Source: Actinocrinis puniceicyclus
Lineage (GTDB): Bacteria > Actinomycetota > Actinomycetes > Streptomycetales > Catenulisporaceae
DNA length: 64,000 bases
Reading direction: 5' to 3'
NCBI RefSeq assembly: GCF_018283645.1
Contig: NZ_JAGSXH010000017.1
Coordinates: forward strand, 1-64,000
A program made the translations under genes and the position numbers. Positions 16,233 through 59,520 of the stretch are shown in pieces (position 1 is the first letter of the stretch; every line of letters begins with the position of its first letter). Under the pieces are notes generated by a model. The model had not been told where the DNA came from and did not search any database. It saw only the letters and a program-made list of their open reading frames with translations.

Positions 16233-17168
16233 TCAGGGCACGTTCACGGTGAAAGCGGCCTGGTGCAGCGTGCCACCGGTCTCGAACTGGACGAACAGCC
16301 GCCAGGTACCGCCCTCCGGGAACAGCGCCTCAGCCGTCAGCGGCCCGTTGCCGCCGGCCACGGCGGCTCGCCCGGTGGACAGCAGGTGCGCGAACGCGGT
16401 GTCGCCCAGCCGGAACGCGGTCAGGTGCGCGTATCCGTCCAAGTAGCGCTGGAAGTACTGGACCGGCTTGCCCTTCTGCGTCACGTCGAGCGTCAGCGGG
16501 ACCACCGCTCCCGCCTTCGGCGCCACCGAAAGCTTGAGCGTGTAGCCGTCGACCACGACGGAGCTCGACGCCGCGGGCAACGTCGCGTTCGCGGCCGCCC
16601 CCGGCACGGTCAGCGGCGCGGACAGGGTGTAGACCAGCGGGGTTCCCGCACTCGAGTCCGGCGCGGCGAAGGTCACGTACGTGCGGTACGAACCGGGTTG
16701 GAGAGCCGGCAGGGAAACGGTCCAGGTTCCGTCCTGCCGCATCGTCGGATCGAGTTGCCGAAAACCGGTCAGGTCCGTACGGACGAGGTAGAACAGCACC
16801 AGCTCGCTCTCATACGGCTGGTAGCGCTTGAGCGCGTGGTCGTCGGGGCCGGTGATGTGGAAGTCGAACGGCGCCGGCGTATGGGCGGGAACCGACGCGG
16901 CCGCCGGGAGATAAATGTATCCGTTGTCGCTCGCGGCCAGTCCGGTGCCTTTCGGGGCGGCCTCGGCGATGGGCGCGGCGGTCGGCATGCTCATGTCGCC
17001 CATGTCCATGTCCGCAGCGCCGTGCGACGGGCCCGACCCGACGTGGACGGTGCTCGCCGAGCTGGTCGAACCGCAGGCGGCGACGGACAGCACCGCCGCG
17101 GCCAGCAGCGCGGCGGCGGTCCCGCGGTAGGCGGCGGATCGCTGTCCGCGCAGGTGTCGCAAAGGCAC
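16233..17168 (-). CDS. Secreted lipoprotein with Met-rich segment, possible metal binding
   Basis: A 311-residue exported lipoprotein: basic N-terminus, hydrophobic core and a lipobox SVAAC near residue 32. A short ADMDMGDMSM segment at about 53-62 is typical of copper-exposed periplasmic proteins. The rest is predicted beta-rich, with a DDHALKRYQPYESELVLFYL motif seen in streptomycete secreted proteins of unknown function, and two similar halves. GTG 17168 has GGAG 8 bases upstream. Copper handling is an inference from the Met/His content only. Confidence 0.7.
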   Translation of the reverse strand: MPLRHLRGQRSAAYRGTAAALLAAAVLSVAACGSTSSASTVHVGSGPSHGAADMDMGDMSMPTAAPIAEAAPKGTGLAASDNGYIYLPAAASVPAHTPAPFDFHITGPDDHALKRYQPYESELVLFYLVRTDLTGFRQLDPTMRQDGTWTVSLPALQPGSYRTYVTFAAPDSSAGTPLVYTLSAPLTVPGAAANATLPAASSSVVVDGYTLKLSVAPKAGAVVPLTLDVTQKGKPVQYFQRYLDGYAHLTAFRLGDTAFAHLLSTGRAAVAGGNGPLTAEALFPEGGTWRLFVQFETGGTLHQAAFTVNVP

Positions 17169-17342
17169 TGTGTGCGCTCCTCAATCTCATCCTGCGTGTG
17201 TCCGCGCCGGCGTTCGCGCGGCTGTGGGCGGCCGCACGGCGCGATGCCGCACGGCCGCCCACGGCCCTTCTCATTGCCCTGGCCCTCCGGCCGATCCAGA
17301 ACCCTGTTAATCAGGCCCCTGAACCGGCTGGTGGGAACCCGG

Positions 17343-18377
17343 TCACGGGCTGCTGCACGAAACGGTCGGCACCGCGGGTGTCGAGCTGTAGTTCGCGGTG
17401 AAGCCGAACGAGGTGCTCGCCTTCGCCGCCAGTTGACCGTTCCAACTGGCGGATTTCATCGTGGCCAGCGTGCCGGCCTGGGACAGTGTCCCGTTCCAGG
17501 CGCTGCTGATGGTCTCGCCGTCCGGCAGGTCCCAGCTCGCCGTCCAGCTGTTGATGGCGGAGGTGTTCGGGTTGGTGATCGTGACCTGGGCCTGGAAACC
17601 ACCCGGCCAGGTGCTGGTCACCGCGTAGGTCGCGCTGCACGAGGCGGCCGGAGGCGGCGGGGCGCCGGCACCGATGCCGGTGACCTGACCGCTGCCGCCG
17701 TCGAACATCACGTCGGAGCACCCGTAGAACGTCTCGGTGCTGTCCGAGCGCGCCCAGATCGAGTAAATGATGTGATACCCGGTCTTACCCGCCGGCAGTG
17801 TCGCGTTCCAGTAGTAGTAGCTGGAGACGCTGCCCGCGCTGCCCACGGACGGCGGCAAGGTCGCCGACGAGAACGGCGTGGACTCCAGATCCGCCCACGT
17901 CAGCGGCTTGGTGGGATCCCAGCCGTCCTTGGTGACGTAGAGGGAGAAGGTGCCCGGGTGCGCGGCCCACTTGTTGTACTGGATCTGGACCGTCGACCCG
18001 GCCGTCAGGTGGGTCACCGGCCAGTCGCTGCGCGCCTGGTCGAAACCGGAGAAATCGTAGTAGTTGCTGTCGCCGCTGCACAGCTTGCCGTCCGGGATCA
18101 GCGCGCTGGTCTCGCCGCTGGTGGCGCCGCTGCGGTTGCCGACCGCGAACCAGTTGTACAGCGGGGTGATGCCGCTGCTGGCGACCGCGGCCTGGCAGGC
18201 AGGGTTCTGCGGGACGATCTGCCCGGTCGAGGTGATGCCGTCCTCATAGCACAGGTAAGTTCGGCTGCCGGGCATCATCATCGCACCGTGCGCGGATGCC
18301 GGGGTCGCGCTCACGACGGTGGCGCCCACCGCCGCGGCGATCGCGCCCCACAGTCCCCATCTCGTTCTTTTCCTCAC
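17343..18377 (-). CDS. AA10 lytic polysaccharide monooxygenase with CBM2 module
   Basis: A 344-residue secreted enzyme. A Sec signal ends at ASA, leaving mature His30 (HGAMMMPGSRTYLC) as the copper-brace first residue; the second brace His is in KWAAHPGTF. The AA10 domain spans about 30-225, then a short Pro-rich linker and a CBM2 domain (about 240-344, with WPGGFQAQVTITN). It oxidatively cleaves cellulose or chitin; CBM2 and sequence type favour cellulose. GTG 18377 is chosen because AAGGG lies 8 bases upstream. Two AACTTTC-like repeats lie about 190-220 bp upstream and recur near other glycan genes here. Confidence 0.93.
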   Translation of the reverse strand: MRKRTRWGLWGAIAAAVGATVVSATPASAHGAMMMPGSRTYLCYEDGITSTGQIVPQNPACQAAVASSGITPLYNWFAVGNRSGATSGETSALIPDGKLCSGDSNYYDFSGFDQARSDWPVTHLTAGSTVQIQYNKWAAHPGTFSLYVTKDGWDPTKPLTWADLESTPFSSATLPPSVGSAGSVSSYYYWNATLPAGKTGYHIIYSIWARSDSTETFYGCSDVMFDGGSGQVTGIGAGAPPPPAASCSATYAVTSTWPGGFQAQVTITNPNTSAINSWTASWDLPDGETISSAWNGTLSQAGTLATMKSASWNGQLAAKASTSFGFTANYSSTPAVPTVSCSSP

Positions 18378-18568
18378 ATGACCCACCCTTCATTGGGCTC
18401 GGCGAGGCTAGGTTGTGGCGGAGGCTACCTGCGGGGCGGGGAGCGGTGAACGCCGCGGTGATCAAGGCCGCGCGGCGCGGCGCACCGCGTTGGGGCGCCA
18501 CCCGGGCGTGCGCACGTCAGCAGGGTCAGGAGGCTGACACAGTTTGGCGCAATCCGGACTAAGCGGAT

Positions 18569-18599
18569 GTAACTTTCCGCCGCCGGAATGTAGCTTTCG
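18569..18599 (-). promoter_or_regulatory. Paired GAAAGTTAC-like motifs upstream of LPMO
   Basis: On the plus strand GTAACTTTCC (18569-18578) and GTAGCTTTCG (18590-18599) begin 21 bp apart, two helical turns. They resemble GAAASTTTC-type motifs reported upstream of actinobacterial glycan-degradation genes (from memory). Confidence 0.4.
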
Positions 18600-18641
18600 C
18601 ACGTCGCCGCGCGCAGCGGCTCCGCGCGGGGGCGGGCCGGG

Positions 18642-19346
18642 TCAGCTGCGCGCCTTCGCCACGGCCTTGCCGAAAGCGGCGTCGGCCATGTTCTTGGCCG
18701 GCTGCGCCAGTGCGACGATGTAGACCACGACGACCGAATTCCCGCTGCGCGCGGCCACGATGTAGCCCGAGGCGTCGACCCCGGTGGAGACCTTGATGTT
18801 CAGCGTGAACGAATAAGAGCCGTCGCCGTACGCGGGCAGCGAGGCGCGCGCGGTGGTGAACGTGCTCGAACCGCTCCCGCCGCCGTGGGTGTAAGTAGTG
18901 CACTGAGACAGACTGCCGACCAGCTTCTGCCAGGCCGAGGCGACCTGCGCCGAGGTCCCGGCGGCCAGTTCCTCCACCAGGAACGGCCCGGTCAGCCCGG
19001 CGCTCAGGTCCGCCTCGGCGCGTCCGGCCAGCGAGCCGTTCCAGACCGCGGGGTTCCACAGACCGCAACCGCTCTGCATGGGCGGGTTCGTGGCGGTCGC
19101 ATCGATGCCCCAGCCGGCGGGCAGGTCCGCGGGGGTGAGCAGCTTGGCGGCCAGGCCCGAGGGGCTCGCCCCGGACGGCGGCGCGGAGCCGAGCCCCGGG
19201 GACGCGGTCGCGCTCGAGCTCGGCGCCGGCTGCGCCCCGGCGGTGTCGGTCGAGGCATTGGACGACGAGCAGCCGCCCGCGCCGAGAGCGACCAGAGCGG
19301 CTGAGCTTACAGTGGCGATACACGTGTGGATGCTCAAGGCGCGCAT
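18642..19346 (-). CDS. Putative lipoprotein, PknH-sensor-like or unknown
   Basis: A 234-residue exported lipoprotein with lipobox ALGAGGC at about residue 26 and a Ser/Pro/Ala-rich linker to residue 65. The folded part begins LLTPADLPAGWGID, with two cysteines (CGLW and QCTTYTH) likely to form a disulfide, and a C-terminal beta strand VVVVYIVAL. This architecture resembles mycobacterial PknH-extracellular/LppA-type sensor domains, but no specific family is certain. ATG 19346 follows AGGGAC. Nothing nearby defines its role. Confidence 0.6.
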   Translation of the reverse strand: MRALSIHTCIATVSSAALVALGAGGCSSSNASTDTAGAQPAPSSSATASPGLGSAPPSGASPSGLAAKLLTPADLPAGWGIDATATNPPMQSGCGLWNPAVWNGSLAGRAEADLSAGLTGPFLVEELAAGTSAQVASAWQKLVGSLSQCTTYTHGGGSGSSTFTTARASLPAYGDGSYSFTLNIKVSTGVDASGYIVAARSGNSVVVVYIVALAQPAKNMADAAFGKAVAKARS

Positions 19347-19425
19347 GCAAGTCCCTCGCGATCAGGTGGCGGATGGCACAGACTAGCGGCCACCGAATCC
19401 TCACTACGAGCAAAAGTGCCGAAAC

Positions 19426-19452
19426 GTTACCGAGCGGCGCACGCTTGGTAAC
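19426..19452. promoter_or_regulatory. Inverted repeat GTTACC-N15-GGTAAC
   Basis: Perfect 6-bp arms with starts 21 bp apart lie 80 bp upstream of the lipoprotein gene. This is a candidate regulator site; the rest of 19347-19669 holds no recognisable gene. Confidence 0.4.
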
Positions 19453-19669
19453 CGCCACGGAACCGGCCCGTGCGCGCGACCGGCACCGGGAGCGAGAGCA
19501 CAAATCCGGCGCCGGGGAAGTCCCATGCTTCACTTTGGCGAATTGATGCCACACTGATCGGTCTGCACCATGGCCCCCGGGTCGTCAGGTGAGACACTGG
19601 CACACAGATCAGGCATCCCCCCAGTCTGATCTCGCGCCCGGGGAACGCGATTACGCGGCTCGGGCGCAC

Positions 19670-19704
19670 CCCCCGGCGTCGCCTTCCCCCAGAGACGCCG
19701 GGGG
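19670..19704 (-). terminator. Hairpin terminator after the P450 gene
   Basis: Perfect 11-bp arms (CCCCCGGCGTC at 19670-19680 and its complement at 19694-19704) with a 13-base loop lie 49 bp downstream of the leftward P450 stop. Confidence 0.6.
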
Positions 19705-19752
19705 CTCTCCTTCCCGGCAGGCCACTTGGCCGCTCGGCGGGCCGTGCGGCCG

Positions 19753-20967
19753 TCACCGATCCCAGCGCACGTACAAGCTCTCCGGTTTGCGGAACACCAG
19801 TCCGCGCACGACGGGAGCGGGCCGGTCCGGGTCCAGCCGCAGCCCGGGCAACTCCCGCAGCAGGGCGCCGAGCGCGGCGCGGGCCTCCAGCCGGGCCGCG
19901 TGCGCACCCAGGCAGAAGTGCGGGCCCTGCGCGAAGGCGAGGTGAGACCTGGCGTTCGGGCGGCTCGGATCGAACCGGTCGGGGTCCGCGAACAGCGCCG
20001 GATCGCGGTTCGCGCCCGCGAGGGACACGATCACCAGGTCCCCGGCGCGGATTGGCGCGCCGGCCAGTTCGACGTCCCGGGTCGCGTATCGGTCGACCAC
20101 CGCGGCCGCGGGCTCCAGGCGCAGCGATTCCTCAAGGGCGTCGTCCAGCCGGGCGGGCTCGGCGCGCGCGAGCGCCGGCTGTTCGGGATCGCCGAGCAGA
20201 TGCAGGGCGGCGTTGGTGATCATCGCCTCCGTGGTCTCGATCCCGCCGAACAGCATGACCGCCGCGTTCGAGACCACCTCGGGAAGTTCGAGCCCTGACC
20301 AGTCGTCGCCGCCGCGCGCGGCGGCCACCAGCATCGAGTCCGGCTCGCCGGCCCGGACCGTGGCCCGCACGCTCTCGCCCAGGCGCGCGAACGCCGCCGC
20401 GCCGCTCGAGCGCGGCTCGCGGCCCGCCGAGATGTCCGAGACCGCGCCGACGATCGCGTCGTACCAGCCGAGTACCGTCTCCGGCCGGGCGTCGCGCAGG
20501 CCGAGCGACTCGGCGACGACCGCGACCGCCAGCGGACCGGCCAGGCCGCGGCGCAACTCGGCGGCGCCGTGCGGGCGCAGCGCGGCCACCCGCCGGGCTG
20601 CCTCCCGCTCGATGAACGCGGCCAGCCGCGCATGCGTGTCACGCGGCCGGAACCCGTCGGCGAACGGCGCGCGGTGCCGGGCGTGCCGCGGGCCGTCGAG
20701 GGAGAGCATGCTCGGCCCGACCACCCGCGCGGTGGAGAAACGCGGGTCGTCGACCGTGAACGCCTCGGCGTCGCGCATCACGGCGAGCGCCAGGTCCCGG
20801 CGGGTCACCAGCCAGCCGCCGAGCGCCGGCAGGAAGGAGACCGGTTCGCTCCCGCGCAGCCGGGCGAGCAGCGGATGCGGATCGCGCTCCAGCTCGGCGA
20901 TCGTGGCCGCGGCGCCGAGCGGGAACCGCTCGGCGTAGCGGAACCGGTCGGCGGTTTGTGCGGTCAC
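19753..20967 (-). CDS. Cytochrome P450
   Basis: A 404-residue soluble bacterial P450. The I-helix motif FGGIETTE, the K-helix EESLR, and the heme loop FAQGPHFCLGAH with Cys352 are intact, and the length is normal. GTG 20967 is inferred because a TAGCGT -10 element ends six bases upstream; there is no ribosome site. No ferredoxin or biosynthetic cluster is adjacent, so the substrate is unknown. The promoter appears to lie at the end of a small inverted-repeat element, which may have altered its expression. Confidence 0.92.
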   Translation of the reverse strand: MTAQTADRFRYAERFPLGAAATIAELERDPHPLLARLRGSEPVSFLPALGGWLVTRRDLALAVMRDAEAFTVDDPRFSTARVVGPSMLSLDGPRHARHRAPFADGFRPRDTHARLAAFIEREAARRVAALRPHGAAELRRGLAGPLAVAVVAESLGLRDARPETVLGWYDAIVGAVSDISAGREPRSSGAAAFARLGESVRATVRAGEPDSMLVAAARGGDDWSGLELPEVVSNAAVMLFGGIETTEAMITNAALHLLGDPEQPALARAEPARLDDALEESLRLEPAAAVVDRYATRDVELAGAPIRAGDLVIVSLAGANRDPALFADPDRFDPSRPNARSHLAFAQGPHFCLGAHAARLEARAALGALLRELPGLRLDPDRPAPVVRGLVFRKPESLYVRWDR

Positions 20968-20973
20968 CCGGCC

Positions 20974-21002
20974 ACGCTAGGCGGTGTTGGGGAATGTATC
21001 AA
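20974..21002 (-). promoter_or_regulatory. P450 promoter formed at the edge of a MITE-like element
   Basis: On the minus strand TTGATA (20997-21002), a 17-bp spacer (20980-20996) and TAGCGT (20974-20979) form a good sigma-70-type promoter ending six bases before GTG 20967. The -35 and spacer are inside the element; the TA of the -10 is its flanking TA dinucleotide. Confidence 0.6.
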
Positions 21003-21064
21003 GGCAACGATTCGACCGCCGCTTTGTCGGATTCGCCCCTTGAGGCATTCCCCAACACCGCCTA
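20978..21064. mobile_element. MITE-like element with perfect terminal inverted repeats, TA-flanked
   Basis: The 20-mer CTAGGCGGTGTTGGGGAATG (20977-20996) is repeated as its exact reverse complement at 21046-21065, and pairing continues imperfectly inward (TCAAGG on both sides). The 83-bp body starting GGCGGTG is bounded by TA on each side within CTAG, as expected for IS630/Tc1-type insertion. No transposase is encoded. It is too long in the loop (49 bases) for an ordinary terminator, although it could fold in RNA. Confidence 0.6.
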
Positions 21065-21153
21065 GCAGCGGGCGGCGACAAGGCCGGGCCGGCCGGGTGC
21101 GACGCCGCCTGTGCGCCGCGTCCGGCCGGCCCGTCGCCGGACAGTCTGCCCGC

Positions 21154-22434
21154 TCAGCAGCCGATGCGCGAGGTGCTGAGCACCACGTCGTCGAACCACA
21201 GCGTGTCGTTGCCGTTGCTGTAGTTCTCCCAGCCGAGCTTGAGGTCGGTCAGGTTCGGCCGCCAGGTCGCCCCCGAGCCGCTGAGCCACTGCGCGTCGAT
21301 GTCCTGCGTCGGCACGCCGTCCTCCGTCATACCGGGCACGGGGCTGCCGTTGTACCAGGTGTAGATCTGACCGTTGGTCCGGCTGACCGAGAACTCGAGG
21401 CAGGCCCACACGCCGGTCGGCACCACGACGCTCTGCGCGACGCCCGCCGGGCTCTGCGCGGGAAGCGTGGCGTCGTCGGACTGCCGGTTCCACATCAGCG
21501 CGCCGTTCTGCGCGCCGAGCCGCAGGTCGGTGTTGCCGGCCGCGGAGTCGTTCATCGCCAGGAACGTGGTGTGGTTGGTCGGCAGCGGCGTGGTGTGCTT
21601 GAACCAGAACCGCACGTACCAGGTCGGCGCGGCGGCGGGCATGTCGGTCGTGTCGTCGGCGAACACGTGGTTGCAGTACGTGCCGACGCCGTCGATCTCC
21701 AGGGACTTCACGCCGGCGTGCGCCTGCGCGCCGGTGATCGAGGCGGTGCCGCTGCCCGAGCAGTTCTGCGCGCTGATGCTCCACCGCCCGGAGGGAACGG
21801 TGCCGGCCTGGTTCTCGAAGCCGTCGCAGAACACTGCCGCGCTCGGGCAGGGGCCGCCGCCCTGGGAGCCGCTGGGGCTGGCCGAGGGGCTGCTCGACGG
21901 GCTCGAACTCGGGCTTGAACTCGGGCTTGAACTCGGGCTGGCGCTGGCCGAGGCGCTGGGGCTGGAACTGGCGCTCGGGCTCGCGCTCGCGCTCGGCGAG
22001 GAGGAGGATCCGCCCGCGCAGGAAACGCCGTTGAGCGCGAAGTCGGTCGGCGTCGCGTCGCTGCCGGAGAAGGTCCCCTGGAAGCCGAAGGTCGCGGTTC
22101 CACCGGTCGCGATCGAGCCGTTGTAGGACTCGTTGACGGCCTTGACCGACTGCCCGCTCTGGGTGATCTGGGCGTTCCAGCCGGAGGTGATCTGCTGGCC
22201 GCCGGTGAAGGTCCAGCTCAGCGTCCAGCTGGTGACCGGGGCGCCGGTGTCGGTCAGGGTGACGTTCGCGGTGAACCCGCCGCTCCACTGGTTGACCTGG
22301 TACGCGACGCTGCACGGACCGGAGGCGGCGTTCACGCTCGGCGCCACGGCGACCACGCTGGCCGCGATGGCGGCGGTCGCCGCGGCCAGGGCGGCATCAC
22401 GCAGGCGGCGGGGCCGGCGCAGGAGGTAGGCCAT
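21154..22434 (-). CDS. Secreted CBM2 protein with Cip1-like polysaccharide-binding/lyase fold
   Basis: A 426-residue secreted protein. Signal peptide (1-37), CBM2 cellulose-binding domain (about 38-140), a long Ser/Pro linker (about 142-192) and a C-terminal jelly-roll domain (about 193-426) beginning FCDGFENQAGTVPSGRW. The C-domain resembles fungal and streptomycete Cip1-like proteins, thought to be glucuronan-lyase-related. ATG 22434 has GGAG 6 bases upstream. The Cip1 assignment is from motif recall; a plain carbohydrate-binding role is the alternative. A GAAAGTTAC motif lies about 150 bp upstream. Confidence 0.75.
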   Translation of the reverse strand: MAYLLRRPRRLRDAALAAATAAIAASVVAVAPSVNAASGPCSVAYQVNQWSGGFTANVTLTDTGAPVTSWTLSWTFTGGQQITSGWNAQITQSGQSVKAVNESYNGSIATGGTATFGFQGTFSGSDATPTDFALNGVSCAGGSSSSPSASASPSASSSPSASASASPSSSPSSSPSSSPSSSPSASPSGSQGGGPCPSAAVFCDGFENQAGTVPSGRWSISAQNCSGSGTASITGAQAHAGVKSLEIDGVGTYCNHVFADDTTDMPAAAPTWYVRFWFKHTTPLPTNHTTFLAMNDSAAGNTDLRLGAQNGALMWNRQSDDATLPAQSPAGVAQSVVVPTGVWACLEFSVSRTNGQIYTWYNGSPVPGMTEDGVPTQDIDAQWLSGSGATWRPNLTDLKLGWENYSNGNDTLWFDDVVLSTSRIGC

Positions 22435-59109: not shown

Positions 59110-59520
59110 CGCGGGCGAACCTGGCCGCGCCGCGATCGGTCGGACGAGGCCGCACTATCGGTACGTTCCGCGCCCCATACGCCGGGGAGTTCGTCACGGC
59201 TGCGCTTCCAGGCTCTTCGCCCCTTCCATGGCCTTCGCCCCGATTCCGAAGGGCTCGGCTCTCCCCTGTCCCACCCGAGCGCGGGCTGAGTAACGACGCC
59301 GCAGGCTTCGCTTCACGCTACGGACCGCACCGTCGCTTCCCCAAAAGGCCCTTTGACGCTGGGCTTCGCCCCCGCCCGTTTCCAGACGAAACCGCCAGCC
59401 TGCCACCGGGCCTCCTGGCACCTACCCGGACCGGACTTGCACCGGCAAGCGACGACGAGCTTACGAACCCTCAGACGATCCGCTACGTCACGGACCTACC
59501 TCCAGTTCTGCTGGGCGCAC
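59110..59520 (-). mobile_element. 5' fragment of a group II intron
   Basis: Read leftward from 59520 the sequence begins GTGCGCCC, fitting the GUGYG 5' splice consensus, then carries GGTGCAAGTCCGGTCCGGGT and GCGAAGCCTGCGGCGTCG, blocks familiar from the RNA of bacterial group II introns. Just before truncation a frame starting GTG 59197 reads MTNSPAYGARNVPIVRPRPT, like the start of an intron-encoded reverse transcriptase. The maturase body and domains V/VI are absent, so it cannot splice. The exact left end is uncertain. Confidence 0.6.

Follow-up and report, generated by a model that had tools for sequence, protein, structure and literature searches.

A recently inserted IS5-type MITE probably modified, rather than created, the putative leaderless promoter of a P450 gene in Actinocrinis puniceicyclus

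A cytochrome P450 gene of Actinocrinis puniceicyclus is preceded by a short mobile element, and we consider it probable that a recent insertion of this IS5-type MITE into a pre-existing -10 box left the gene with a promoter fused from a host -10 and an element -35. The window, i.e. the whole stretch of DNA that was analyzed, comprises 64,000 nucleotides (contig NZ_JAGSXH010000017.1, positions 1 to 64,000). The insertion would have hit the TA of a -10 box (CTAGCGT) that served, or was able to serve, as leaderless P450 promoter. Duplication of the TA would have left both the -10 and the 6 nt between it and the GTG intact, and the DNA upstream of the -10 would have been replaced by the terminal repeat, which now provides a putative 17-bp spacer behind a TTGATA -35-like hexamer. 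Thus, the promoter was probably modified by the insertion and not created by it. The case is built on the MITE family, its TA target, its IS5-type relatives, the geometry upstream of orthologues and the arrangement of the sequence. From these we infer that the -10 already functioned prior to the insertion, and that the fusion promoter, most likely the present promoter of the gene, is active now. The features are listed in Table 1.

Table 1. Features of the P450 upstream region (window coordinates)
Feature	Position	Strand	Basis
83-bp MITE, both terminal inverted repeats included	20980..21062	.	repeat search, genome copies
Left terminal inverted repeat GGCGGTGTTGGGGAATG, doubling as 17-bp spacer of the P450-facing promoter-like site	20980..20996	+	
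Right terminal inverted repeat GGCGGTGTTGGGGAATG	21046..21062	-	
TA target copy on the P450 side (host CTAG), first 2 bases of the -10-like TAGCGT	20978..20979	.	
Second TA target copy (target site duplication)	21063..21064	.	
TTGAGG at the non-P450 end, outward; followed by N17 and TAGCAG (21063-21068; not TANNNT)	21040..21045	+	
Cytochrome P450 gene, GTG start at 20967, 404 aa	19753..20967	-	
TTGATA, -35-like, element origin, facing the P450 gene	20997..21002	-	
TAGCGT, -10-like (TANNNT), host origin, 6 nt before the P450 GTG, probably older than the insertion	20974..20979	-	
Upstream neighbor, CBM2 and Cip1-like polysaccharide-lyase-like protein; stop 91 bp from the element	21154..22434	-	

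A preliminary description of this DNA had proposed a small TA-flanked inverted-repeat element with perfect 20-bp repeats around an 83-bp body. The element and its repeats were found exactly there, and the element proved to be non-autonomous, multi-copy and recently mobile. The 83 bp, which were taken for the sequence between the repeats, are the entire element including both ends. Its inverted-repeat arms (20976-21004 and 21038-21066) span 29 nt each and are 93% complementary. The perfect part covers 20 bp (CTAGGCGGTGTTGGGGAATG), of which CTA belongs to the flank and 17 bp (GGCGGTGTTGGGGAATG) form the perfect element end; TA borders the element on both sides, and it is the CTAG flanks that extend the perfect repeat to 20 bp. 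Allowing up to 3 mismatches, the 17-mer occurs at two places in the window, both of them element ends, versus 0.21 expected in shuffled sequences. The element folds at -67 kcal/mol, much more stably than shuffled sequences (z = -8.7). A search of Rfam gave no family match for the element. Elsewhere in the window, at 59313-59448 on the minus strand, Rfam detected a group II catalytic intron D1-D4-4 (RF02003, 85.6 bits).

The 17-bp repeat was then sought in the 6.77-Mb draft genome, as the preliminary description had suggested. With up to 3 mismatches it had 72 matches, compared to 11 for a reversed control pattern, and a BLAST search with the element returned 12 copies of full length that are 95-100% identical, together with longer and older relatives. 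At least 21 copies are well preserved; they measure 83/84, 97, 195/196 or 212/213 bp, and the 83-bp form appears to have arisen from the 213-bp form by an internal deletion. A TA was present on one side in all 21 copies and on the other side in 20 of 21, the exception (C244b) having TG. In two copies (C133 and C177) one flank is CTAG and the opposite flank is CTAA, which means that the duplication is TA and that the G is part of the element. For nearly all copies the empty site is CTAG or CTAA; one is TTAT. Two further copies (C369:7451-7533 and C395:20365-20447) are 100% identical to the window element, indicating recent movement. Being short and multi-copy, lacking a transposase gene and possessing terminal inverted repeats and a target site duplication, the element is a MITE. 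A unique repeat conserved together with P450 orthologues would have refuted the preliminary description; the repeat is instead multi-copy and missing from the orthologues. The MITE was absent from 59 other related genomes in a DNA search, and among 294 genomes of the order exact CTAG-flanked ends were present in only three Catenulispora-type genomes. Exact-pattern loci in unrelated genomes (L065, L067-L069) had no convincing second end and are probably due to chance. The ends at C399 and C69 were considered as halves of a parent IS and rejected, since these copies are truncated or rearranged and lack a transposase.

An exact search of the genome collection for the element ends led to Catenulispora rubra. 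In genomes of one genus-level group, Catenulispora, three loci (L091, L092 and L100) hold elements of ~1,121 bp with CTAG on both sides. Their ends read GGCCGTGTTGGGGAATGTGTCAGG (slightly diverged in L100), compared to GGCGGTGTTGGGGAATGTATCAAGG in the MITE, and match the MITE ends at 16 of 17 positions. In these elements, two frames encode a transposase that has DUF4096 and DDE_Tnp_1 domains (Pfam PF13340, PF01609/PF13586), and the NCBIfam match (NF033580) is to the IS5 family. Since elements with the same ends encode an IS5-family transposase, the parent family of the MITE is IS5 and not IS630/Tc1, as had been proposed initially. IS5 elements prefer YTAR targets, mostly CTAG (PMC5493358), and the MITE copies sit at such CTAG/YTAR targets; IS5/IS427 elements that have two frames and CTAG repeats have been described in actinomycetes (PMC9241763). 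Judged by its ends, the MITE is IS5-family (IS427-like), and its mobilization by an IS5 transposase is predicted. It is an ordinary kind of mobile element, but a new family of MITE, here reassigned to IS5. Five IS630-type (DDE_3) loci were detected in the Actinocrinis genome, none with MITE-like ends, and an IS630 parent was rejected on this ground and on that of the Catenulispora elements. A separate IS630-type element (L042, C120) has ends reading GTGTCYTGCGTCTTAAAT, which are unrelated to the MITE. The search for a parent transposase succeeded in the Catenulispora relatives only: an autonomous partner with matching ends was not found in the draft genome, where IS5 transposases are located at C85, C392, C222, C76 and C115. 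Among these five, only C76, a truncated transposase at a contig end, has remotely similar ends. The MITE ends are thus shared with an autonomous-type element of sister genera and not with one inside the Actinocrinis genome.

On the minus strand, TTGATA (21002-20997) is followed by a spacer of 17 nt (20996-20980), TAGCGT (20979-20974), 6 nt and the GTG at 20967. The hexamer and the spacer are element sequence, the TA is duplicated target, and GCGT and everything downstream belong to the host. In these points the arrangement is as the preliminary description had it, including the -10 that ends six bases before the GTG; TTGAGG-N17-TAGCAG at the other end likewise has the sequence and spacing claimed. 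Upstream, the P450 frame is closed by an in-frame TAG at the target site, which makes GTG 20967 the first available start. By sequence the gene has a leaderless arrangement (TANNNT 5-8 nt before the start, here TAGCGT-N6-GTG). TAGCGT fits TANNNT and agrees with TATAAT at 3 of 6 positions, and a generic sigma-70 scan found no promoter at the P450 upstream site. In a genome sample of ~850 kb the pattern TTGA[C/T]A-N17-TANNNT occurs only twice, both times at ends of the MITE family. A diverged copy (C55) reads TTGACA-N17-TAGACA, and the parent-type Catenulispora IS reads CTGACA-N17-TA, with its hexamer in the same place as TTGATA. Joining the flanks into an empty site would give TGCTAGCGT, an extended -10. 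The P450 gene itself lies in a cellulose-degradation neighborhood (window 16233-22434), flanked by genes for LPMO10+CBM2 and Cip1-like+CBM2 proteins.

In order to obtain MITE-free counterparts, P450 orthologues were sought in 13-14 genomes of the family, 396 of the phylum and 395 of the class. Within the family (13-14 genomes) no orthologue above ~45% identity was found. Ten orthologues with 55-67% identity (tblastn), all from other actinobacterial families, were used, with start codons set by eye from frame and alignment. This distribution suggests that the P450 gene was acquired horizontally or underwent loss. Since the closest orthologues are just 55-67% identical and come from other families, the true empty allele is not among the sequences. 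In six of the ten orthologues a TANNNT box precedes the start codon by 5-7 nt: TATGGT-N7-ATG (L119), TATCGT-N7-GTG (L120), TACGCT-N7-ATG (L121), TAGCCT-N5-GTG (L139) and, in both L140 and L141, CTAGGCT-N6-ATG. The last two correspond to an empty CTAG in the geometry of the P450 gene, a site that the preliminary description had proposed to look for. The remaining four (L118, L137, L138 and L142) are without leaderless geometry. The signature of leaderless genes, found for 18.9% of S. coelicolor genes (PMC3160421), is a TANNNT box that lies ~12 bp ahead of the start. Against a rate of ~19%, six of ten gives a binomial p = 0.005, with the ten orthologues not being independent of each other. As six MITE-free orthologues share the geometry and two of them have an empty CTAG, the -10 and the leaderless geometry are probably older than the insertion.

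This result bears directly on the initial proposal that an IS630/Tc1-type MITE created a new leaderless promoter in one step. The TA target, the TTGATA-N17-TAGCGT-N6-GTG arrangement and the occurrence of the motif elsewhere in ~850 kb only at another copy of the element are all in line with it. We nevertheless regard it as very unlikely, given that the -10 and its distance to the GTG are host sequence common to MITE-free orthologues; the family assignment is largely refuted by the IS5-family transposase of same-ended elements and by IS630-type loci of the genome that lack these ends. Somewhat less improbable, but still unlikely in our view, is a neutral or mildly damaging insertion, in which the promoter used the -10 (extended TGCTAGCGT) together with other upstream DNA that was then displaced, TTGATA being there by accident as transposase-binding sequence of the ends. 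The hexamer belongs to the extended terminal repeat (TCAAGG at both ends), as expected for transposase binding, the three identical copies imply an insertion so recent that there was too little time for selection, and other copies show no TANNNT bias. Because the empty site already reads as an extended -10, the insertion might even weaken the promoter rather than help it. What this account leaves to chance is the 17-bp spacing to the TA, which is ideal and is kept in the parent-type IS and in an old diverged copy. A contribution of TTGATA, which would be putative, is in line with the hexamers at this place in the parent-type IS and the C55 copy and with known IS5 fusion promoters (PMC11894529). 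The fusion of host -10 and element -35 remains the reading that we prefer.

The genomic positions of the family copies are relevant to a third possibility. In 13 of 21 copies a gene ends in a TAG stop codon composed of the target TA and the G with which the element begins, and 12 of 21 are situated between convergent genes. Genes around the copies were called by a home-made codon-usage caller, and many flanking genes have Pfam support (GH25, CHAD, amidase, COX1, MarR, M50B peptidase and two NUDIX). The background was an 848-kb genome sample with 16 copies excised, consisting mostly of copy-bearing contigs, so that the following figures are approximate: of 117 other CTAG sites, 27 are at stops, 17 inside genes, 39 divergent, 29 tandem, 3 convergent and 2 at edges. 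Of the 15 copies that occupy CTAR sites outside gene interiors, 10 coincide with stops and 11 are convergent (p = 0.004 and 1.1e-6, respectively, versus non-coding CTAG; p = 7e-5 and 2e-7 versus non-coding YTAR). Either targeting or selection could produce this bias. One copy (L002, C8; 32-1583) sits at TTAT, where the first G of the element makes a TAG stop that is not present in the empty site; a CHAD-domain gene was therefore probably shortened. The P450 copy is atypical for the family, being one of few on the 5' side of a gene (the others are C333 and C373). The C333 copy (L021, 1500-1760) is 213 bp long and is located 19 bp upstream of a BrkB-family gene, which reads TAACCT-N6-GTG, another apparent leaderless start. 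TANNNT is present at 5 of 42 element flanks, compared to 21% of CTAG sites, i.e. without enrichment, and a general targeting of -10 boxes was rejected. Most copies are at stop codons, and promoter supply is not the habit of this MITE family.

Such a distribution would suit a REP-like hairpin that ends or stabilizes the upstream CBM2 transcript and insulates the P450 gene, as sister copies between convergent genes may do. In addition to the very stable fold, this account is consistent with the CBM2 gene ending 91 bp upstream on the same strand and with the 16 mapped copies, of which 11 are convergent and 10 at stops, compared to 11 and 27, respectively, of 98 non-coding CTAG sites. We judge it highly improbable as the main role of the P450 copy, which lies in tandem 5' of a gene and not at a stop. 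The element also has no U-tract and no terminator-like match, and a separate inverted repeat (21085-21133) already follows the CBM2 stop.

Taken together, an IS5-type MITE family with recent activity was identified in a Catenulispora-related genome. It follows a simple insertion rule, by which target TA and first G restore stop codons, and is enriched between convergent genes. We tentatively propose, as a possibility short of likely, that the family is signal-preserving: a CTAG/TA target combined with ends starting with G would regenerate the TA-based signal that is hit, mostly a TAG stop and, at the P450 gene, a TANNNT -10 together with a correctly spaced -35. If true, this would allow low-cost spread and occasional promoter rewiring in a 71% GC genome in which CTAG is largely found at stops or in intergenic DNA. 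The P450 copy would be a natural example in which a mobile element swapped the upstream half of a putative leaderless promoter while -10 and start codon stayed untouched. The analysis also corrects the tempting over-reading that the element created the P450 promoter.

Several known systems resemble the one described here. IS5-family elements of the IS427 group share the CTAG/TA target and the terminal repeats of ~17 bp, and relatives have the two-frame DUF4096 and DDE transposase; the MITE differs in having no coding capacity and in an inner sequence that, beyond ~25 bp, is unlike the Catenulispora IS. REP-like or SPRITE terminator-like repeats likewise form stable palindromes and occur between convergent genes as well as at 3' ends, whereas the MITE is clearly transposon-derived, with TA duplication and IS5-type ends, and is without a U-tract. 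Bacterial MITEs with promoter motifs, such as Correia elements, MITEAba12 and BrickBuilt (PMC10969869), are also short and multi-copy, with terminal repeats and a sigma-70-like motif near the ends. Here, in contrast, the element holds only the -35 half, and most copies are at gene 3' ends and not upstream. In E. coli, promoters that combine an IS5 end with neighboring host DNA have been demonstrated experimentally (PMC11894529). The fucAO promoter of that study likewise arose by insertion at CTAG, which joined an IS5-family end to the host sequence next to it. In that case IS5 contains the core promoter and the host supplies a Crp site, whereas at the P450 gene the host would contribute the -10 and the element the -35.
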